23,410 nt of DNA from a virus. The position numbers and the translations under genes were made by a program. The stretch is from positions 1 to 23,410 of the IMG/VR virus record IMGVR_UViG_3300034198_009991, one strand, 5' to 3'. Below are positions 3,849 through 19,358 of the stretch, in pieces. Positions within the stretch are counted from its first letter, which is position 1; each line of letters begins with the position of its first letter. Below the pieces are notes generated by a model. The model had not been told where the DNA came from. It did not search any database and saw only the letters and a list, made by a program, of their open reading frames with translations.

Positions 3849-4445
3849 TTAACCTCCAACTTTATTATTCTCAGTTTCTGCAGTTCCACCATATTTAGAC
3901 TTCTTAAGTTTATCTGCTCCCGTTGCACAAGCAGCTAAACCACCATAAATGTCTAGAATTGCATTGCCAATAACCTTTGTAGTTCCTGATGAAAAGAACT
4001 TTGCAACTGAAGAAGCATTGATCTCTACATTTTTTGATATAATCTCAACTTTTTCATTGGACTTCAGTGTAATCACACCATTCTTATTGTCTGATCCACT
4101 TGCAAGAAACTCTATATTCTCTGCTTGAAACTTAATTCTTCCGCGAGTTGCACTGAAAATAATATCACCATTTACACATTCAACATAAAATGCTGGTTTT
4201 CCATTTTCAGGATCGCTTGTTACATCATCGCCACATTTGATTTGATATGTTCCTGGGCATCGATTAATTGTTCCACCTTTTCTACCTTCGCCTCCAGTAG
4301 CATCCATAGACATGTAATGTCTGATATCAGAGCCACTTCTAACCATAAAGGCAGAAATTTGATTGTCATTGTGAATATGTCCAAACTTTATTTCACCATC
4401 TTTGGTGCCGTATCTTAAAGAGTCGGGATTTTTAACCTCTGACAT
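3849..4445 (-). CDS. Beta-helix spike-like baseplate protein, 198 aa
   Basis: The N-terminal region (1-70) has HIHNDNQISAFMVRSGSDIR, and residues about 80-165 form repeating short strands (DIIFSATRGRIKFQAENIEF, GVITLKSNEKVEIISKNVEI). This pattern is typical of the triple-stranded beta-helix at the end of gp5 or VgrG-type spikes. The gene starts at the last base of gp5 and directly follows it, so it may supply the spike shaft that T4 carries in its gp5 C-terminus. The role is inferred from repeat pattern and position. Confidence 0.62.
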   Translation of the reverse strand: MSEVKNPDSLRYGTKDGEIKFGHIHNDNQISAFMVRSGSDIRHYMSMDATGGEGRKGGTINRCPGTYQIKCGDDVTSDPENGKPAFYVECVNGDIIFSATRGRIKFQAENIEFLASGSDNKNGVITLKSNEKVEIISKNVEINASSVAKFFSSGTTKVIGNAILDIYGGLAACATGADKLKKSKYGGTAETENNKVGG

Positions 4446-6703
4446 TATACTTTACCTACACAATCGATGACTTGAAGAATTGATTCTCCTGGAGGAACAG
4501 TTGCTTCTGCTTCAGGAACATCTCCAACTCTATTTACACAGAACACTGGAAGTATCTTTGCATTATATCCTGTTTCTGATTCAATGTAAATTTCTGGCGC
4601 TACGGTATATCCAATTCCAGATGAAATGATCTTGACATTTTCTAAACTTCCAAACGCACCATATACTGGTTCAAGTACAGCTCCTTTATCTGGAGAAATA
4701 ATAATCTTATCAGTAGTGCTATAAGCAACTCCTGGATTTGTAACTATAGTATTGCAAAGATACAGAACTACAGGATATTGTGCTGTTGTAGAACTTGGTT
4801 GTATTGCAGTTTCAGATGATCCAGGATTTCCAACTTTTGGATCATCTGGTGGACAACCTGGGGCAGTGATTGATTGATCTTCAGTAGCGACATATTGTGG
4901 TTGTCCTGCAAGTTTCACAGTATCACCTGCTCTGATACTCATAATTTCTCCCCCATTATATGGAGTATCCCAGGTTCCGTTTGCTCTATAAATCGTTGAT
5001 TGACATCTTGTAGCCCATACTCTACCACTACCACCAAGATCTCCATTTGGGGACGATAGATATCCAGTTCCAGATTGTTCTATAACTGCATTGATAACAC
5101 CAGTTGTTGATTCGCCATTTGGACCGGTCACTGTTCCAATCAGTGCTGTAGCAACTGCACCTGTTCCTTGTCCACAAGCATCTTCAAATTGAATAAATGG
5201 TGGTTCAGTATAACCAAATCCAGATGCAATGATATCAACACCAAGAATATCTCCTGTAGCACTAATGATTGCATTAGCTTCTGCACCTTCACCTCCACCG
5301 CCATAAAACACAACATTTGGAGGACCACATTGAATTGCGTTCGTAGAACAACTATCTTGGAAAATATCAGAAAAATCTAAATTAAAATCAAAATTATTTG
5401 GATCGATTACCTCTTGTGCATTTGATGCAAAAGTTTCTACAGTATTGAAAAGATTATCAAAGTTTAATGTTGTATTGGCTCCCGCACCATCCCAAATACT
5501 CCATTCTTTCAGATTTCCGCAGGATGGTTTTTCATCACAAGTAAGAAGACCGAGCAGTTGGCCAACAAAATTTAAAATTTGACCCGCAATATCAAAAGCA
5601 CCACCAACAAGTGCTTCAAGTGGTTTTAAAATTTCATTGATTGTCGAAGAAATCAATCCAACAAGTTTTCCAAGCACTCCGCCGACAAAATTATTAACAA
5701 AACATTCAGTAACATTAATAACTTCGTTTACCATTGCCAAGAGTGCTTCTCCAATCATCTTCAAAAGATTGGAAATAATTTTATTAAACAGACAAGAGAG
5801 TGTGTCGTTAACTTGCTCTACTGCTTCTTTTGCTTTTGGTCTTTCGTTAGGATACAAATTATAATAAGTATCCTTCATAGTATTATTAATTTTTTCTGTT
5901 ACATATTTTCTAGTTCCATCAATAATGTCTTTGAAGAATTTACTTATGTCCTTTGCAGCATTATTAATCTTCATCTGAATATATTCAGATGAAGACATTT
6001 GCTGCCCATTATAATTAATTGGTTTTAAAACAGTATTTTTCCATTCTTTTTCTTGCTTTTTAGCGTTTTCAATATCTTTGATTAATTGTTGCAGTTTCTT
6101 TTGAACTGCAGATAACTCTGCAGGATCACACTTTGATTGAATTGGATTTGTTTGCTGCCCGTCTTCTTTTTGTTCAATATCGCAAGTATTATCCAAACAT
6201 GTTCTGGATCCCGAATTACCTTCTTGTGGCGAACCATAAGGAATTACTGGAATCGAATAATATGGAACTTCTTCGCCATTGTGTCCACTAAAGGGAACAA
6301 ATCCTTCTAGTGGAATGTTTCTTGATAGTGTTGTCTGATCATTATTTCCTAAGCAACCAAAAATAATCGGTTCGGTTGCATCAATTCCATCCTTATAAAA
6401 TCCAAATACATAAGTTCCATGATTTAAATTAGCACTCTGGTATCCACTTTTATGTCCAGATCCAGCAGTGACTGGATATAAAAGTTCTGCCATCTCCAGT
6501 TGATCATCTGGAGTATCTTTATTTGCACTATCTCTACCAAATATTCTTACCTTACATCTTGTCCCATAACCAGGAATTTGTGTTGCATCTTGAAACTTTT
6601 CTCTTTTCTCATTATCTTTCCAGGTTTTATCATCGACAACCTGCCCCAACCACCATTGGAGATCTGTCAGTCCTGAATGAGAATTGAAAAAGTTATTAGT
6701 CAT
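4445..6703 (-). CDS. 5: gp5 baseplate hub subunit (no lysozyme domain), 752 aa
   Basis: Residues about 12-120 form the gp5-type OB fold: WWLGQVVDD, GYGTRCKVRIFGRD, LEMAELLYPVTAGSGHKSGY, LNHGTYVFGFYKDG, EPIIFGCLGN. This N-terminal domain of the hub spike docks on gp27. T4 gp5 (575 aa) has its lysozyme next; here residues about 190-400 are a long, mostly helical and partly hydrophobic insert with no lysozyme motif. The C-terminal part holds four G-x-G-Y-type beta units at about 495, 545, 658 and 696 (GFGYTEPP, GTGYLSSP, GVAYSTTD, GIGYTVAP). I take the ATG at 6703, which overlaps the upstream stop as TGATG; a TTG codon precedes it. A 28-bp palindrome lies in the coding sequence at 5968-5995. Confidence 0.85.
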   Translation of the reverse strand: MTNNFFNSHSGLTDLQWWLGQVVDDKTWKDNEKREKFQDATQIPGYGTRCKVRIFGRDSANKDTPDDQLEMAELLYPVTAGSGHKSGYQSANLNHGTYVFGFYKDGIDATEPIIFGCLGNNDQTTLSRNIPLEGFVPFSGHNGEEVPYYSIPVIPYGSPQEGNSGSRTCLDNTCDIEQKEDGQQTNPIQSKCDPAELSAVQKKLQQLIKDIENAKKQEKEWKNTVLKPINYNGQQMSSSEYIQMKINNAAKDISKFFKDIIDGTRKYVTEKINNTMKDTYYNLYPNERPKAKEAVEQVNDTLSCLFNKIISNLLKMIGEALLAMVNEVINVTECFVNNFVGGVLGKLVGLISSTINEILKPLEALVGGAFDIAGQILNFVGQLLGLLTCDEKPSCGNLKEWSIWDGAGANTTLNFDNLFNTVETFASNAQEVIDPNNFDFNLDFSDIFQDSCSTNAIQCGPPNVVFYGGGGEGAEANAIISATGDILGVDIIASGFGYTEPPFIQFEDACGQGTGAVATALIGTVTGPNGESTTGVINAVIEQSGTGYLSSPNGDLGGSGRVWATRCQSTIYRANGTWDTPYNGGEIMSIRAGDTVKLAGQPQYVATEDQSITAPGCPPDDPKVGNPGSSETAIQPSSTTAQYPVVLYLCNTIVTNPGVAYSTTDKIIISPDKGAVLEPVYGAFGSLENVKIISSGIGYTVAPEIYIESETGYNAKILPVFCVNRVGDVPEAEATVPPGESILQVIDCVGKV
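5968..5995. repeat. 28-bp perfect palindrome inside gp5
   Basis: The 14-base half TCTTCATCTGAATA is followed directly by its exact reverse complement. In RNA it would form a 12-bp stem with a UAUA loop. On the gp5 strand it encodes SSSEYIQMK (around residues 238-246). No U-tract follows, so it is not a standard terminator. Confidence 0.9.
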
Positions 6704-6918
6704 CAATCGTCGTATACTCTACATTCCAGAGCATCTGGATGCATATCACAATACAGCTCTAATGCTGTTGGATCATGATCATCATCAGGATGATTCATTT
6801 GATACTGTTCTAATGCATCAAGTTCATCTTCAATGTGACGACGGCGTTGAGAACTTGTATTGGGATTGTCTAATTCATCCCGATCATCATTGATGTGTTG
6901 TTGAAGTGATTTGTCCAT
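6703..6918 (-). CDS. Small acidic conserved cyanophage protein, 71 aa
   Basis: Reads MDKSLQQHINDDRDELDNPN and is strongly helical and acidic, with Asp/His-rich stretches (NHPDDDHDPTALELYCDMHP) and the end ECRVYDD. An upstream in-frame start at 6975 would overlap the gp27-like gene by 55 bases. The ATG at 6918 fits the operon spacing, 2 bases after that gene's stop. It lies between the gp27-like hub and gp5 genes, so a role as a hub-assembly factor is possible but unproven. Confidence 0.72.
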   Translation of the reverse strand: MDKSLQQHINDDRDELDNPNTSSQRRRHIEDELDALEQYQMNHPDDDHDPTALELYCDMHPDALECRVYDD

Positions 6919-6920
6919 AG

Positions 6921-8243
6921 TTACAAAGGTTTCCTTCCGATAGATTCTCTCACTAAATTCAGAGTTGTATAACACCCATTTTTTGTTATACGATGACCAA
7001 CATCCGATACCATATATATGCCACTTTTCTTGTAACTATAAGTGGTATTGGTTTTTGCAGATACCTCTGGAAAATCGCAGTGAATGATATCGCCAGCACG
7101 AATACTAAAATCTCCTGCAATTGTCAATGAAAGTTTGATAGCAAAAAGACTATTATATCTTGTTGCTGATTGAATCAAAATTTCATCAACATTAAAATTA
7201 AGTTCTTTTGATTTATTTAATTGCTGATTAAGATTCGTTCCTCGGGGCAATGTTCCAGTATCTAAGATTTTAACATATCTTTTTGTTGTTTTATTTTGAT
7301 CGTCACCATACTTAATTTTTTCAAGTCCACCAGTGTTATTTTCATTGAATTGGTTGCTTGAATTTATAGCATTTTTATCATTGTATTTGTTTGTATATGG
7401 ATCAAATGTTCTTGTTTCTGCTTGGCCAATCGCACCAGTCAAACGTAATCGCTTTAAATTGAAGGTGGCATCAAACGAATACGTTAAAATCTTTCCATTA
7501 TATCCTGGTGGTATTTTTCCAATCAAGTTGTTAAATATAAGTTTTCTCTTTGGTTGTTGTTGAAATAACTTATCAATGGATTTAAATTGAAATCCTTCTG
7601 CAGTTTCATAGAAGAAGTATCCTGCAAGATTTCCCTTTGCTCCTTGAATATCAGGAACACATCTTTTCGCTAACCAAGTGCAAAGATAAAATGGTTTTTG
7701 ACTTTTTCCAGTGAAACTAAAATCATTTAATGCCGAGTCAACACTAATTGATTTCTTTGTCTTAAGTGTGCTTTGCAGTATACTCTTTACACTATCAGTA
7801 ATTTTTCCATCATATCTTTTTGTAACAACACTTTCCAGATTATCATTATCATGATATTCTGTCGATGTCATGTCAATTGTATAAACAATCTTATTAGTGC
7901 TTTCATCAATGTTTCGTGTTTCCAAAACTCTCAATTGATTATTATTTTCTACATCAAAATATAATTGAGTCCCATAACCATCAGTGAACTTTATGTTTAC
8001 AAATTCGCCAGTGTTTAGATTTACATCACCACTTTCAAGAACTGTAGATCCTTCTGCGTTTCTTCTGTATCCAGTATCAGTTAATGTTGCTGTGGCACGA
8101 ATTGTATGATCTAAAACACTTTCATGATAAGTGAATTCAATAATACCATTGGATATATCCGTGGGTTTTTTGGTATAGTGAGATACTATCTCAAATAGAT
8201 TAATTTGACCTTCGCCGCCTTGGGCTTGAATATTTGCTGCCAT
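6921..8243 (-). CDS. gp27-like baseplate hub protein, 440 aa
   Basis: The N-terminus is beta-rich (GIIEFTYHESVLDHTIRATA). The centre has the hub signature FYLCTWLAKRCVPDIQG...YFFYETAEGFQFKSIDKLF (about 185-227), which resembles the T4 gp27 segment where a one-residue-per-strand domain presents a 'full/field' site. The C-terminal domain ends GIYMVSDVGHRITKNGCYTT then LNLVRESIGR, typical of gp27/VgrG-N hub domains. Its length is close to T4 gp27 (391 aa). Position next to gp5, its known binding partner in the central hub, supports the call. The similarity is remote, so the name is a structural assignment rather than strict homology by sequence. Confidence 0.72.
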   Translation of the reverse strand: MAANIQAQGGEGQINLFEIVSHYTKKPTDISNGIIEFTYHESVLDHTIRATATLTDTGYRRNAEGSTVLESGDVNLNTGEFVNIKFTDGYGTQLYFDVENNNQLRVLETRNIDESTNKIVYTIDMTSTEYHDNDNLESVVTKRYDGKITDSVKSILQSTLKTKKSISVDSALNDFSFTGKSQKPFYLCTWLAKRCVPDIQGAKGNLAGYFFYETAEGFQFKSIDKLFQQQPKRKLIFNNLIGKIPPGYNGKILTYSFDATFNLKRLRLTGAIGQAETRTFDPYTNKYNDKNAINSSNQFNENNTGGLEKIKYGDDQNKTTKRYVKILDTGTLPRGTNLNQQLNKSKELNFNVDEILIQSATRYNSLFAIKLSLTIAGDFSIRAGDIIHCDFPEVSAKTNTTYSYKKSGIYMVSDVGHRITKNGCYTTLNLVRESIGRKPL

Positions 8244-8244
8244 A

Positions 8245-10335
8245 TTATGCTCTACCCAAACTTGCCATATTATTATTTACACTCATAGGAATTGGAAATG
8301 CTATTGTTGAACTTCCTCCTGAAGGAACTGGAACTGGTTTTTCAAAAATAATTGGTTGAATTGCAACTGTTGTACCACCAGAATCATAAGAAGGATATCT
8401 GTAAATGGAAGAAACTTTTTGTGGTTTTGGAGTTTTAAGTTTTGCTGGATTCTCCGCTTCTTTTGGAGAATACATGAATGGAGGAATAAATGGTATGCCA
8501 CTACCAACTTTCTTTTCGCCAACTTTTTTAGCACCTACTTTTTTTACACCTGCTTTTTTGATAAACTTTTTCCATCTTGGTTGAGACCAACCTCTTGGTG
8601 GTGAAGATCCTGGTCCCGACTGCCATGAATAATGATAGAAATTTCCTCTTGCATCAACCATTGGGTCTTCGGTGGAAACTCGGTTTCCCAACATGGTTTG
8701 TCCTTTGAAGTCTGTTCTTCCCTGAAGTCGATACAATGCTGCTGCAATTTTTGCTTGTCCTTCTGGAGACTGTAAATGTTTTTCAATGTCTGGAGAAAAT
8801 CCTGCAGTTCCTTTTGTAATAGCTTCATATTGACCTGGTGATAGCACAACTTTTTTAACAGATCCTCTTCCTTCAGCAACTCGATTCAAAATTGATGCAG
8901 CTACAGCATACATATCATCGCCAGGACCTGCTTCTCCACTTATACCATATGCAAGATATTTGTAATCTTCATTACTAAGTCCTGTTAACGTAGCACCACT
9001 CATTGGTGTCAATGGATCAGAACCAGGACTTGAAACTGCTGGGCCTCCGCCGCCACGACGACCTCCTCCCGTGCTTGGTGCCCCTTTACTTGGAGCTCCA
9101 GAATCTCCTGATGGTTGTTTATCCTCATCAATTTTGATAAGTTCATCAGTTACATTTTTTAATGCATCATTAACTCGACTTTGAATTAATGTTGCAAGAA
9201 GATTGCCTACAATTTTAGTATTTTGTTCAGTTGATAGAACCATTCCACCATCAGCAAATCCTAAAATTGAACTGCTTATAAGATTTAATCCTCGTCCCTG
9301 TTGAATATTTGCTTGAGATAAGGAACCAACTCCACTTGCAACAGATGTTGCAATTCTCTTACTATCTACTTTTTGTCCCAGTGCAATCTTAACACCAGCA
9401 GCCATCAGAGCGCCAATCCAACCACCTTTATCTAAAGAATCGGAAACCCCAGTTAAAGCTTTATAAGGATTTGGTTGTCTCTTGCCAGTAGTTGGTTTTG
9501 GATCTGGAAATAATTTTTGAATCTTTAATTTGCCACCAACATCTTTACCAGGATTTGTTTTTTCTGGTTGAACTTTCTTTGGTATTTGAAGTTTTCGTTC
9601 TTGTTTTAAAGTTCTTCCAATTGCTCCACCAACAATCTTACCACCTCTTGTTTCTCGTCCTCCATTTGCATAACCACGAACCATTCCTCCAACAGATTTT
9701 TTCTCAGGTGGTTTTTGATTTCCTCTTCCAAGTTCAGATAAACCGAATGTTAAAACAGCATTTAAAAATCGATTGAAGTTTTCTCCAAATTGATCAAATG
9801 TTTTTTGTGCTTTATCTCCCCCAAGATCTTTGGACAAGGAACGCATTTGATCATAAGCTTTATATCCTGCATCAACAAAACCAACAACACCTTCAAAAAT
9901 ACCACCTACAATTTTTTCCGCGACATTTAAGACAGGAACTGTTTGTTTTAAAATACCTAAAAGTTTTGGAGTATCTCCTTGAAATTTAGTTAAAAGATAC
10001 CCTAAAAATGTATATGTTGCAAATCTTTGAACCGCATCAAGTATTCCAGTTTTTGGAAATAAAGACTTTAGTTTTTCTGCTCCCTTAATTCCTTTTGGCG
10101 TTTCTAAACTTTCCTCTTTTTTTTCTCTTTTCTTTTTTGTCGTCGTAAGTTTTCCTTTTATTGCTTTTCTTTTTTTCTCTTTGTTTTCATTTTTTAAAAA
10201 CTTATCAACATTAATAAGTTTTTCTTTGACCTGAAAATTAAGAACATCATCCACTCTTTTATCATAAGACGCTGCCATTCTTTCGGCAGTCGTTAATTTT
10301 GATGGTGGTAAAAGTTTTTGTGGATTGATAGCCAT
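8245..10335 (-). CDS. Tape-measure-like tail protein with SleB-type cell-wall hydrolase domain, 696 aa
   Basis: Order of parts: a Lys-rich coiled start (1-90); hydrophobic helices with FATYTFLGYLLTKF (105-118) followed by membrane-type helices (125-160); a Gly/Lys linker region (200-300); a second hydrophobic part (300-360); a Gly/Ser-rich linker (405-450); then residues about 452-585 with YLAYGISGEAGPGDD, YAVAASILNRVAEG and VKKVVLSPGQYEAI. The last block is the SleB/Hydrolase_2 peptidoglycan hydrolase pattern, with the likely catalytic Glu in SGEAG (E468). A VKKVGAKKVGEKKVG repeat follows (594-612), then a Pro-rich tail. It lies between a tape-measure-like gene and the gp27-like hub and probably acts as the tail's cell-wall-opening enzyme. 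Confidence 0.78.
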   Translation of the reverse strand: MAINPQKLLPPSKLTTAERMAASYDKRVDDVLNFQVKEKLINVDKFLKNENKEKKRKAIKGKLTTTKKKREKKEESLETPKGIKGAEKLKSLFPKTGILDAVQRFATYTFLGYLLTKFQGDTPKLLGILKQTVPVLNVAEKIVGGIFEGVVGFVDAGYKAYDQMRSLSKDLGGDKAQKTFDQFGENFNRFLNAVLTFGLSELGRGNQKPPEKKSVGGMVRGYANGGRETRGGKIVGGAIGRTLKQERKLQIPKKVQPEKTNPGKDVGGKLKIQKLFPDPKPTTGKRQPNPYKALTGVSDSLDKGGWIGALMAAGVKIALGQKVDSKRIATSVASGVGSLSQANIQQGRGLNLISSSILGFADGGMVLSTEQNTKIVGNLLATLIQSRVNDALKNVTDELIKIDEDKQPSGDSGAPSKGAPSTGGGRRGGGGPAVSSPGSDPLTPMSGATLTGLSNEDYKYLAYGISGEAGPGDDMYAVAASILNRVAEGRGSVKKVVLSPGQYEAITKGTAGFSPDIEKHLQSPEGQAKIAAALYRLQGRTDFKGQTMLGNRVSTEDPMVDARGNFYHYSWQSGPGSSPPRGWSQPRWKKFIKKAGVKKVGAKKVGEKKVGSGIPFIPPFMYSPKEAENPAKLKTPKPQKVSSIYRYPSYDSGGTTVAIQPIIFEKPVPVPSGGSSTIAFPIPMSVNNNMASLGRA
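8500..8556 (-). repeat. Short degenerate repeat encoding a K-K-V-G linker
   Basis: This stretch encodes tandem units of the form [AVE]KKVG (residues 594-612 of the SleB-domain protein). It is a basic, flexible linker between the hydrolase domain and the Pro-rich C-terminus. Confidence 0.6.
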
Positions 10336-10338
10336 TTA

Positions 10339-12237
10339 TCAAACTATCCCGTAAATGCTTGCATTCATTGCTCGATCTGAACTGCCACTTGGAGATACTG
10401 CAGAAAATGCAGGGACTTGAGTTCCAGAACCTGCAGCCATTCCAGCAGCAGCTCCAGTTTGTGTAATTGGTGGAAGATTAATAATGCGAGATCTTCCCTT
10501 GCTTGGAGGTGTGGGCATTGGACCCTTGTAATAACCTTTTTTATATGCTTCTTCAAGAGAACCTCCTGCAGGTTGAGGATCAAACATATCTCCAATTACA
10601 GGCGCATTTAATAATCCCATTGCCCTTCCCCCAAGTTTCATCAAACCTTTTCCAAATGCTTGTGCCATTGTTGGGGTTTCTCTCATTAACAATGGCATTA
10701 ATGATCTCGCTTTAGCGCCAGTATATTTTCCAGATAAAATTCCCTCAGCAATTCTCAATCCTCTATTTGCTTGTCGTTCTGATACAACTGTAGCACCTCT
10801 AAAAGTTCTTGCTGCTTGAGGAACCAACATATTAAGTCTTGGGCCCTGACCAGGAAGTATACCTTTCCAGTTTCCAGCACCTCTATAAGTATCAGCAACC
10901 CATCCTTTAATACTTCCATATACTCCTTTTCCAAGCATACCAGTTTGTCCTTTAAACCCACTTTGACGAATTAATTCTGGAATACCTTCTCCAGTTCCAT
11001 GCATTATTCTCATCAAATCAGCACCTCGCAATCCCATTGGTTTTCTGCCAATAAGACCTCCACCTTGAGCAAATTGAATATTATCTGCAAATCTTGGTTG
11101 ATTGGCATTTGATCCACCAAACATTGAGTTTAATGCAAGCAATTTTTTTGCACCAATCCCTTTTACTGCGGCACGATTCATTACGATTTCACCTGGTTGT
11201 AGCGCAGTCAATTGAGTATCCGGACCTGCTCCAGAAATTTTGATTCCAGTGTTCGGATTGATAAAGCCTCCAGATGAAACACCTTGTAATAATCCATATG
11301 GAGTTGTTGGTCCCAAATCTCCAACGCTAGGAGATTTATCAATCATCGTGTCTGTTCCACGAACTCCTAATCCCTTGCCGGTCTGTGCTTTTGCTTTGCT
11401 TTCTGTTTGGACTGCAGCTGCCTTTCTTTGTCCCGTTACTTCATTTGCAAGAGCCGCTAATCCAGCAAACGCTCCTGCTGGAGTAAAAATTAATTTTTGA
11501 GCTGCAAATCTTGCACTAAACCATGCAATTTGCCCAAGAGTTTTGAATATAAACCCTTTGAAAGGCATAAAGTATAAACCAAGTAAAGCAGGCCACCAAT
11601 CTTTTAAAAACCTACCAAGAACCTGAACTTTCTGAGCATTCTTAGGATCGCCCAACCAATTCATAAGTTGAGTAAATGCTCTACCAAGTAAAGTAAAAGT
11701 TATAAATTTCCAAATACGATCAAAAATGCCTTTAAATGGTTCAATAACTTTATCAATTATCTTTTTGCCAACTTTTTTTACTCCTTCAAGAGCGTCTTCC
11801 TTTTTACTTCTTTTCTCTTTTTCTTCATCTTTTCTTTTATCTTCTTCTGTCTTTTTGTCAAACTTCAGTCTATTCTTTAAAGTCTCAAAAATTGAGTTTA
11901 ATACTTTTAAAATTCCAAGTGATGGTTTTTTAACTTCTTGTTGAGGAACAATTTTTGCAAGAGCGCCACCGCGATCTTTTGTTCCAGGAAGAATATTAAT
12001 TTTTATTGGTTTGACTTTTGCAGTAGCGATTGCCTTTTTTTGCAATACTTTTTCTACAAAAGTTTTGAACTGAACTTTATTTGTTCTTTTCTTAAATGCT
12101 TCTTTTCTTTCAGAAGGAGTTAATTGTTCTCCCGCAATCGTTCCTTCTGCCGATAATTCTTGCAAATATTGATCGTATCTATCCTTACCTACTAAACTAA
12201 GGGCTGATATTCTTTTGTTGTTAGGGTTATCAGCCAT
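10339..12237 (-). CDS. Tape-measure-like tail protein with ADP-ribosyltransferase-like segment, 632 aa
   Basis: Parts in order: a Lys/Glu-rich N-terminus (1-150); hydrophobic helices beginning KFITFTLLGRAFTQL (177-191) and WWPALLGLYFMPFKGFIFKT (214-233); the tape-measure-style motif DTQLTALQPGEIVMNRAAV (340-358); a region with MHGTGEGIPELIRQSGF then GMLGKGVYGS and ADTY (412-451); and a Gly/Ser-rich end. The HGT/GKGVY/Y spacing matches PARP-type ADP-ribosyltransferases. It directly follows the gp26/gp51-like pair, where tape measures sit in tailed phages. It may be the functional gp29 analogue (T4 gp29 is 590 aa), but I see no clear gp29 sequence match. The start overlaps the preceding gene by 8 bases. 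Confidence 0.7.
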   Translation of the reverse strand: MADNPNNKRISALSLVGKDRYDQYLQELSAEGTIAGEQLTPSERKEAFKKRTNKVQFKTFVEKVLQKKAIATAKVKPIKINILPGTKDRGGALAKIVPQQEVKKPSLGILKVLNSIFETLKNRLKFDKKTEEDKRKDEEKEKRSKKEDALEGVKKVGKKIIDKVIEPFKGIFDRIWKFITFTLLGRAFTQLMNWLGDPKNAQKVQVLGRFLKDWWPALLGLYFMPFKGFIFKTLGQIAWFSARFAAQKLIFTPAGAFAGLAALANEVTGQRKAAAVQTESKAKAQTGKGLGVRGTDTMIDKSPSVGDLGPTTPYGLLQGVSSGGFINPNTGIKISGAGPDTQLTALQPGEIVMNRAAVKGIGAKKLLALNSMFGGSNANQPRFADNIQFAQGGGLIGRKPMGLRGADLMRIMHGTGEGIPELIRQSGFKGQTGMLGKGVYGSIKGWVADTYRGAGNWKGILPGQGPRLNMLVPQAARTFRGATVVSERQANRGLRIAEGILSGKYTGAKARSLMPLLMRETPTMAQAFGKGLMKLGGRAMGLLNAPVIGDMFDPQPAGGSLEEAYKKGYYKGPMPTPPSKGRSRIINLPPITQTGAAAGMAAGSGTQVPAFSAVSPSGSSDRAMNASIYGIV

Positions 12238-12397
12238 TAGTCTGTCGCTGTTTGAGTTCCTCTTCCTCTAAATGATTCTTAAGAAGAGCAACGTAAATGT
12301 CTCTTTCCCAAGGAATCATATTTTCAATCTCTGTTAATGAATATTTATGATACTGCATTAACGAAAAATTAAGTTGATAATAACTTTCTAGGTCCAT
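12230..12397 (-). CDS. gp51-like small baseplate hub assembly protein, 55 aa
   Basis: This ORF is short and reads MDLESYYQLNFSLMQYHKYS, then IENMIPWERDIYVALLKNHL and an acidic helix ending RQTNG. I recognise the MIPWERDIYVALL block from the small cyanophage proteins annotated as gp51, the baseplate-hub assembly catalyst. The ATG at 12397 has AGGA 9 bases upstream, overlapping the end of gp26; an ATG at 12406 is in frame but lacks room for a binding site. It lies between gp26 and a tape-measure-like gene, as tail-assembly chaperone partners do in other phages. It is much shorter than T4 gp51, so the symbol is withheld. Confidence 0.7.
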   Translation of the reverse strand: MDLESYYQLNFSLMQYHKYSLTEIENMIPWERDIYVALLKNHLEEEELKQRQTNG

Positions 12398-12408
12398 ATG
12401 GACCATTC

Positions 12409-14851: not shown

Positions 14852-15805
14852 ATGCCTAATAACGTAGCTATTGTCCCACCAGATCAGACATCTCAACCAA
14901 TAGCACCTTCTAATCGTCCTGCTAAAGGTCTTAAGGATGAGTCATATTTGGTGTATCCTCGTGATATGGCAGATGATCAAGATAGAATTAAATTTGTTGC
15001 ACTACAATATCCAAAACAATCTCTTGGAGAACTTCCCAACTTTTCTAATTTAGATATATTAAAAGAACCATCTAGTAAGAAGTCAGATTATACACCAGTT
15101 CCTGGAGAACCATACGTATATTTACCAATCCAAGCAGGAATATCTGATACTAATGGTGTTGAATGGGGCGGCGCAGAATTAAATGCAATACAAAAATATT
15201 TTGCAAATTTGTCAGTCAACATAATGAATGAAGGTGGCAATGCTGTTGAAACGGCATTAGCAAAAGCTATGAATGAAATTTATGCAAATAAGGGTGGCAT
15301 TTTTGGTCAACTTACAAATGCAGGAAAATTAGCTCTTGCAGAAATGGCAACAGGAACTCAAGGACTTCTTTCAAGGGCAACAGGTAACGTTCTTAATCCC
15401 AATTTAGAACTTCTTTTTAGAGGTCCAACTTTAAGACCATTCCAGTTCCAATTTAAATTATCTCCTAGAAGTAAAAAGGAATCGGAAAGCGTTAAAAAGA
15501 TAATAAGATTTTTCAAAAAAAATATGGCAGTTCAGAGAAACAATGATATATTTTTAAAAGCACCTTACATTTTTGGTATTGAATATCAAAAAGGAACTTC
15601 GAGTTTGCACGCATCAATCGGACAAATAAAACCATGTGCTTTACAAGCATTTAATGTTGATTATACACCTCTTGGATCATATATGACTTATAATGATGAT
15701 CGTACAACAATGGTCGCTTATAATTTATCTCTCACATTCCAAGAAATTATTCCAATTTATAATACAGATTATTCCGATACCAAATATAACGATATAGGAT
15801 ACTAA
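14852..15805 (+). CDS. 48: gp48 baseplate tail tube cap, 317 aa
   Basis: The C-terminal half has LFRGPTLRPFQFQFKLSPRS (188-207) and VKKIIRFFKKNMAVQ (214-228), the hallmark of T4 gp48, and then YIFGIEYQKG, CALQAFNVDYTPLGSYMTY and TTMVAYNLSLTFQEI. T4 gp48 (364 aa) caps the hub and, with gp54, nucleates the tail tube. The N-terminus is Pro-rich (PPDQTSQPIAPSNRP). It follows the 116-aa gene by 13 bases and precedes gp53 by 1 base. Confidence 0.9.
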   Translation: MPNNVAIVPPDQTSQPIAPSNRPAKGLKDESYLVYPRDMADDQDRIKFVALQYPKQSLGELPNFSNLDILKEPSSKKSDYTPVPGEPYVYLPIQAGISDTNGVEWGGAELNAIQKYFANLSVNIMNEGGNAVETALAKAMNEIYANKGGIFGQLTNAGKLALAEMATGTQGLLSRATGNVLNPNLELLFRGPTLRPFQFQFKLSPRSKKESESVKKIIRFFKKNMAVQRNNDIFLKAPYIFGIEYQKGTSSLHASIGQIKPCALQAFNVDYTPLGSYMTYNDDRTTMVAYNLSLTFQEIIPIYNTDYSDTKYNDIGY

Positions 15806-18340: not shown

Positions 18341-18928
18341 CTATAAAATTATTTCCTTGAGGATTTTTTTGTATTTAAAAATGTCTATTTGAATAAATGG
18401 GCTATATTTTTTAATTTTTAAACTGACGGTTTCCCACACTGGGTCTAGCAGTTTTTTATCAAATTTATTCCCGAACATGAATATTCTATCATAAATCACC
18501 AAAGTTTCAATACTGATTTTACCACTCAGAAAACTTTTTAATACTGGAGGATGTCCTTTTGAGCAGTTAAAGACATCCTCAAATTTATGTTCTGAAAATA
18601 GTTTTTCAGATTCCTCTTTGAAGATGTAACTTAGCGACTGAATCTTTCTCTGCCAGTCTGTATAAGTTCGATCACCTTCCCGTATAATATTTCCAATCCA
18701 CAAATTAGAAGGATCAGAAGCCATAACAAAATTACTAACAAAGAACTCCTGAATTTCTTTATCAGTCTTATTGCGGGATAGTTTCTCAAACCAAAAGCGA
18801 TCTTTCCTTTTGTAGAACGACTGAAGATTCGCTTTGATCTTGCCACAATACTTCTGGTAATCATAATTTGGTTGCGTAAAATGATTTTTCAGAGCAAGAT
18901 AAGTTTTATAGGTGTCAAAGGGCATCAT
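18341..18928 (-). CDS. 59: gp59 loader of replicative helicase, 195 aa
   Basis: Starts MMPFDTYKTYLALKNHF and continues YDYQKYCGKIKANLQSFYKR, KDRFWFEKLSRNKTDKEI, LWIGNIIREGDRTY, WQRKIQSLSYIFKEESEKL, KSFLSGKISIETLVIYDRIF and LDPVWETVSLKIKKYSPF. These match T4 gp59 (217 aa) block by block, including Y-x-x-R-x-D-R-F/Y-x-F-x-K-L and V-W-x-x-x-S. The protein loads helicase gp41 onto gp32-coated fork DNA. A longer reading to 19120 overlaps the endonuclease gene in another frame and is not gp59-like there. Only 22 bases separate it from the homing endonuclease upstream. Confidence 0.9.
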   Translation of the reverse strand: MMPFDTYKTYLALKNHFTQPNYDYQKYCGKIKANLQSFYKRKDRFWFEKLSRNKTDKEIQEFFVSNFVMASDPSNLWIGNIIREGDRTYTDWQRKIQSLSYIFKEESEKLFSEHKFEDVFNCSKGHPPVLKSFLSGKISIETLVIYDRIFMFGNKFDKKLLDPVWETVSLKIKKYSPFIQIDIFKYKKILKEIIL

Positions 18929-18950
18929 TTCAAAGCACGGTAAAAATTTT

Positions 18951-19358
18951 TTAAAATGATAAATTATATGTTTTTGTTTTTTTGGGAACAGGTGTATATT
19001 TTTCTGAAGAATAACTTGTCTTACGAGATTGATTTTGACGAACATTTTGAATCTGTTCTTGTCTTCTTTTTGACAAATATGGTTCCATTTTTTCAGCAAT
19101 ATACATTGCTTTTGGACCACATATTGATAATCTATATTGAGTTTTGTATTCTTTACCCTTCACATTTTTTCCAGATGGAATAAATGTTCTATATTTTTCA
19201 TGTTGCAGAATTGATGCTAGTTTTTTAATAACATCTTCATCAGACATGCTAATAGACATATGTGGATAGTAATAAACTTTATTGTTGGTTGTTCTTTTTT
19301 TAAGACCTACCCACCCTTCTCCCTCAAAAATTCCTACTAACCAACTAAAATCGTCCAT
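18951..19358 (-). CDS. LAGLIDADG-type homing endonuclease, 135 aa
   Basis: The start MDDFSWLVGIFEGEGWVGLK holds the LAGLIDADG-type motif (WLVGIFEGEG, residues 6-15), where the acidic residue before the final Gly binds the catalytic metal. Then HMSISMSDEDVIKKLASILQ and YRLSICGPKAMYIAEKMEPY, LSKRRQEQI, the usual beta-alpha order of the fold. It has one motif and about 135 residues, so it should act as a homodimer. It is free-standing between gp33 and gp59, with its own late promoter (19388-19381) and a poor ribosome-binding site, as is common for phage homing genes. Confidence 0.88.
   Translation of the reverse strand: MDDFSWLVGIFEGEGWVGLKKRTTNNKVYYYPHMSISMSDEDVIKKLASILQHEKYRTFIPSGKNVKGKEYKTQYRLSICGPKAMYIAEKMEPYLSKRRQEQIQNVRQNQSRKTSYSSEKYTPVPKKTKTYNLSF

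Follow-up and report, generated by a model that had tools for sequence, protein, structure and literature searches.

Two paralogous, tape-measure-like carriers of exchangeable enzyme loads, probably housed in the tail of T4-like cyanomyoviruses

The 23.4 kb viral fragment analysed here (the window: IMG/VR record IMGVR_UViG_3300034198_009991, positions 1 to 23,410) encodes two large adjacent proteins, A of 632 amino acids (aa) and B of 696 aa, between a gp51-like gene and a gp27-like hub gene. Its gp26 (T4_baseplate, E 8e-78), gp53- and gp48-like genes and gp19/gp54-type tube protein type the window as a T4-like cyanomyovirus, and its gene order matches that of Kyanoviridae isolates. The two open reading frames (ORFs), whose coordinates and lengths had been given correctly in a first-pass annotation made from the letters alone, lie on the minus strand with 3 nt between them; the gp51-like gene and the start of A share 8 nt. 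That annotation also placed the pair correctly between gp51-like and gp27-like genes, but its equation of this place with that of gp29, the T4 tape measure, fails: gp29 follows genes 27 and 28 in T4 and does not lie between 51 and 27. The pair is standard in cyanomyoviruses, not peculiar to the window. It occurs in tandem in about 20 viral contigs and 12 isolates, and every cyanomyovirus locus with both flanks readable has two genes, with the sole exception of S-CRM01, which has one. The features considered below are collected in Table 1.

Table 1. Features of the carrier locus in the window, with the basis of each assignment.
Feature	Position	Strand	Basis
Protein A, tape-measure-like carrier 1	10339..12237	-	ORF; orthologue in the same slot of all two-gene cyanomyovirus loci compared
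Protein B, paralogous carrier 2	8245..10335	-	ORF; conserved second gene in cyanomyoviruses
A core, residues 103-195: Lys-rich coil and hydrophobic start, homologous to B	11653..11931	-	hhalign; cross-hits of hidden Markov models (HMMs)
B core, residues 28-122: homologous to A 103-195	9970..10254	-	hhalign; HMM cross-hits
A residues 321-399: GG...DT..AL.PGE.VM (PGE) module, as in phage tape measure families	11041..11277	-	Regular expression; weak PHROG tape-measure matches
A residues 399-573: conserved load block, claimed to be ADP-ribosyltransferase-like	10519..11043	-	Kept in A-slot proteins; no family match
A residues 575-632: conserved A-type C-terminal tail	10342..10515	-	HMM specific to A
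B residues 446-585: SleB/Hydrolase_2-type wall hydrolase load	8581..9000	-	Pfam, PHROG, solved SleB profile
B residues 641-696: conserved B-type C-terminal tail	8248..8415	-	HMM specific to B
gp51-like small gene	12230..12406	-	ORF; position and size like annotated gp51 of relatives
gp27-like hub gene, directly downstream of B	6921..8243	-	phrog_350 tail protein, E 6e-70; synteny
gp5-like spike without detectable lysozyme domain	4445..6706	-	phrog_1922, E 6e-90

Comparison by hhalign of a profile of A from 30 relatives with a profile of B from 23 relatives aligns the two core segments (A100-262 against B25-215: probability 99.0, E 4.1e-18, score 112.7), and 100 column-shuffled B profiles of preserved composition score at most 13.1. 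When the Lys-rich coil is excluded, 30 columns (A ~166-195, B ~93-122) still align with a probability of 95. The profiles also align the two segments that the first-pass annotation had picked out as a similar hydrophobic core start, KFITFTLLGRAFTQL (A 177-191) and RFATYTFLGYLLTKF (B 104-118). An HMM of the A core, run against 954 background ORFs that include the whole S-SM2 genome, matches A and then B only, the B proteins being found at 1.8e-13 in S-SM2 and 3.9e-10 in the window, with the next ORF at 0.011; without the coil the HMM discriminates more weakly (~6e-4 versus 0.13). BLAST matches between the A and B of one and the same genome are found in 13 genomes (best core match 3e-11, in L034), and the load region accounts for some of these matches. 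The paralogy of the cores, as first proposed, is borne out by profile comparison, shuffle controls and background scan alike: judged by sequence, the cores are homologous and the pair is an ancient duplication. In a tree of the cores, A rows and B rows stand apart across the cyanomyoviruses, except for the long branches of S-PM2 and L041; this separation into clades marks the duplication as old, not recent. The second carrier of L041 (4482-6017) is only 511 aa long, and its core groups with that of its partner, near the A clade. Outside the core A and B diverge, the PGE module and A-type tail being confined to A and the B-type tail to B.

Both proteins follow the same plan: core and end are conserved, and the middle varies. 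The enzyme cargo that had been taken to be C-terminal is accordingly an internal insert, after which come the conserved type-specific tails; the A-type tail is possibly a hub-binding segment. That the carriers hold enzymes is supported across the relatives, in which exchangeable modules occupy the middle: Pfam recognises Phage_lysozyme2, GH19, Glucosaminidase and Hydrolase_2 in relatives of A, and Hydrolase_2, VanY, Glucosaminidase, M23 and Phage_lysozyme2 in relatives of B, and cluster C phages have GH19 in A with a T4-type Phage_lysozyme in B. SynMITS9220M01 A and L038 B share a SleB load at 65% identity; loads have, on this sequence evidence, moved between the A and B slots. Most loads in both slots appear to be wall hydrolases, and the two carriers of a phage together usually hold what look like two different wall enzymes. 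The proposed division of labour, one activity for the wall and one for the cytoplasm, is therefore not general, both slots carrying mostly peptidoglycan hydrolases and the same load occurring in either. In the window the load of B is, by its profile matches, a SleB-type hydrolase, as had been recognised: it aligns with the profile of solved SleB (4f55/4fet, E 2e-9 over 71 positions, with the Glu of 'GE' aligned) and matches phrog_12490 (E 4e-47) and, more weakly, PF07486 (E 1.6e-4, under the curated cutoff in the window and over it in L001).

Published mass spectrometry places both proteins in virions of two relatives. In S-CREM2 virions the two genes of the A/B slot are represented by 73 unique peptides of ORF208 (1565 aa) and 71 of ORF209 (1456 aa) (PMC10665884); in S-SCSM1 virions ORF213 and ORF214, which are A and B, are both detected (PMC9602691; also record notes). 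The S-CREM2 authors suggested the capsid as a possible site of both endolysins (PMC10665884); slot and homology argue for a location in the tail.

A tape-measure-like nature, which the first-pass annotation had assumed, is supported by the long predicted N-terminal helix, the GG/PGE module of A, the syntenic slot and the fact that both proteins are longest in the longest-tailed phage. The PGE module is found by regular expression in 28 of 30 A proteins and none of 23 B proteins, and the A of the window and related A proteins give weak PHROG tape-measure matches. Helices are predicted at A 108-195 and 198-250 and at B 16-78 and 98-202 (98-117 within the core), in low-confidence models of A and B (mean predicted local distance difference test, pLDDT, 47 and 50; predicted template modelling score, pTM, 0.21 and 0.26). 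Foldseek with these models returns no match at E 0.001 or better; the best for A, S-PM2 A at E 0.009, is not relied on. Among seven related phages with tail lengths published from transmission electron microscopy (TEM), tail length correlates with the length of A (r 0.92), of B (r 0.91) and of A+B (r 0.95), against -0.30 for the hub as control; S-CREM2, with a tail of 418 nm, has the longest A and the longest B. Its locus (L059 6484-15555) contains long low-complexity stretches, with Ser/Thr/Asn runs in A and QSMGSV-type repeats in B, that are absent from S-N03.

The slot itself is wider than the pair. In HTVC008M (Pelagibacter), phiN3 (Sinorhizobium) and Melnitz (Methylophilales), related phages of non-cyanobacterial hosts, a large gene likewise lies just downstream of gp26-gp51; they differ from the cyanophages in that it is a single gene, with no detectable similarity to the profiles of A and B or to their cores. 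The HTVC008M gene carries the annotation of a putative tape measure. S-CRM01 has a tail of 140-170 nm with one carrier (L062 12919-15513, 864 aa), which has an A-type C-terminal tail (39% to S-N03 A), carries a lysozyme load of B type (33% to S-N03 B) and looks like the product of a loss of B after cargo transfer. Since S-CRM01 makes its tail with a single A-like carrier, one carrier suffices, and this favours the reading that A is most likely the tape measure proper, with B as a second carrier besides it.

In T4, gp5 carries a lysozyme domain that does the wall cutting. No lysozyme domain is detected in the gp5-like spikes of the window and 9 relatives, and the simplest account is that wall cutting has shifted from the spike to the tape-measure carriers. 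We regard it as fairly probable that A and B are anciently duplicated, tape-measure-like proteins inside the cyanomyovirus tail, carrying exchangeable enzyme loads and ejected at infection. Each carrier would lie in the lumen of the tube, with a long helical N-terminal core acting as ruler, an enzyme load in the middle and a C-terminal tail for which the gp27/gp5-like hub is the probable anchor. At infection A and B would pass out of the tube before the DNA, and their loads, mainly peptidoglycan hydrolases, would be released in the envelope to perform the task that T4 assigns to the lysozyme domain of gp5; in the case of the window, the loads would be a SleB-type hydrolase from B and, from A, a conserved module of 175 residues. 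The tape measures of TM4 and phiCbK are the precedents that suggest such delivery through the tube.

Several observations weigh against this account. Neither A nor B matches T4 gp29 (PF25671, phrog_1283) in Pfam or PHROGs, and hhalign gives a probability below 1. At 1.5 Å per residue, the continuous helix predicted in A (~140 residues) would not span a 100 nm tail, both models being of low confidence. The length correlation comes from seven related phages, uses TEM values from different papers and depends strongly on S-CREM2. The hydrophobic segment by itself gives modest support to homology, and the cores of cluster C phages are barely recognisable. The virion proteome of S-SZBM1 lists the hub and neither A nor B (PMC9146016), unlike the findings in S-CREM2 and S-SCSM1.

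An unlikely alternative is that A and B are virion lysins bound to the baseplate or hub, the real tape measure being encoded elsewhere in the genome. It would account for the want of gp29 homology and for the little helix that is predicted, and it agrees with the records of relatives, which label A or B as endolysin, lysozyme or carboxypeptidase; but the slot and the PGE module are tape-measure-like, the single slot gene of HTVC008M bears the tape-measure annotation already mentioned, and the annotation of S-SM2 offers no better candidate. VrlC, considered as an alternative tape measure, is improbable in this role, having a similar length in S-SM2 (2519 aa) and in the 418-nm-tailed S-CREM2 (~2668 aa in ORF124, equated with it by position).

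The load of A bears on a different possibility, which we doubt to much the same degree: that it is a PARP-like ADP-ribosyltransferase destined for the cytoplasm, with the opening of the wall left to B. The block, of ~175 residues, is seen only in cyanophage contigs and is 63-76% identical in A-slot proteins, including carriers that cannot otherwise be recognised, a pattern that suggests horizontal exchange. L051 and L055 likewise have it in the first gene after gp26. The ADP-ribosyltransferase-like segment claimed for A in the first-pass annotation is not borne out, searches of Pfam, PHROGs and PDB profiles and with a PARP HMM all being negative, and the structure model of the block has no resolved fold. 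A short conserved motif, HGT...GF...GKGVYGS, occurs among 1496 stretches only in this block and resembles the PARP-type (H-Y) pattern; that pattern was fitted afterwards, and the likeness serves as a lead, not as a test. An ADP-ribosyltransferase load in the A slot is real in another phage, as shown by its Pfam domain: S-PM2 A (L006, 7272-10775) has one at residues 66-218 (PF01129, E 1.3e-5), on the N-terminal side, unlike the block of the window, together with Phage_lysozyme2 near the C-terminus. The A load has no similarity to the S-PM2 domain, however, nor to anything in the bacterial genomes searched, and wall hydrolases are the majority of loads in both slots. What is supported of the first interpretation is core paralogy, tape-measure-like nature, enzyme carriage and presence in the virions of two relatives; the ADP-ribosyltransferase in A and the wall/cytoplasm split are not supported.

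Rather less probable is a two-protein tape measure, stacked or a mixed bundle, in which A and B are both rulers and their combined length sets that of the tail. A+B is the best correlate of tail length (r 0.95; 0.93 without S-CREM2), both proteins reach their greatest length in S-CREM2 with low-complexity stretches that S-N03 lacks, and their peptide counts in S-CREM2 virions are similar. Set against this are the 140-170 nm tail that S-CRM01 makes with one such protein, the loads that inflate the lengths of A and B, and a tail length per residue that differs between phages (0.138 nm in S-CREM2, ~0.08 nm otherwise). We would give equally little weight to the fuller version, in which a ruler of A with B both sets tail length and delivers two different enzymes per infection, with loads that pass, cartridge-like, from slot to slot and from phage to phage. 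That the A/B similarity arose by convergence of Lys-rich coiled coils, and not by duplication, is very improbable: Lys and Arg make up about one third of both coils and the signal falls once the coil is removed, but composition-preserving shuffles fail, the 30 columns beyond the coil hold, other ORFs reach no better than 0.0056, and A and B of the same genome match by BLAST in 13 genomes, partly in the load region.

Elsewhere in the window, a gene for CP12, the Calvin cycle regulator (6703-6975, minus strand), separates the gp27-like hub gene from the gp5-like spike gene, an arrangement shared by several other cyanomyoviruses. The gp48-like tube cap (14852-15805, plus strand) has 317 aa; in many relatives an N-terminal extension brings it to ~440-480 aa. 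A LAGLIDADG-like ORF (18951-19358, minus strand; PF14528, E 5e-4) overlaps the gene for the gp59 helicase loader (18341-19120) at its start and is possibly a homing endonuclease insertion.

Tape-measure-like virion proteins with a wall-cutting domain and a proposed role in DNA entry have precedents in mycobacteriophage TM4 Tmp, which has a peptidoglycan hydrolase domain (PMC1796659), and in phiCbK gp95, with a CHAP domain (PMC3556154). The cyanophages differ from these in having two paralogous proteins per genome, with loads moving between them. T4 gp29 and the gp5 lysozyme belong to the same tail system, and the C-terminal end is there also helical and non-enzymatic; but gp29 is without sequence homology to A or B and stands in another gene order, and in some cyanophages it is B or the single carrier that has the PF00959 lysozyme lacking from the gp5-like spike. 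Sle1-type effectors of actinobacterial contractile injection systems (PMC13277306) are also tape-measure-related, reconfigurable carriers of different functional domains; they serve a bacterial nanomachine, with a Sle1/Sle2 pair (PMC13277306), and are likened to A and B by description. Rulers with one wall-cutting enzyme are well known; of the pair of sister carriers there seems to be no description as such in the open-access literature, which by itself does not establish that it is new.

In the open-access literature found, no tape measure is named for these very abundant ocean cyanophages and wall cutting at entry goes unexplained, while the A and B proteins of relatives are filed as endolysins. 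If the account favoured here, of duplicated tape-measure-like carriers ejected from the tail, is true, it would supply concrete candidates for tail assembly and for entry through the wall, and would explain why gp5 has lost its lysozyme. It would also make testable a natural cartridge system that delivers enzymes by way of a contractile tail, with S-CREM2 and its 418 nm tail and S-CRM01 and its single carrier as ready comparisons.

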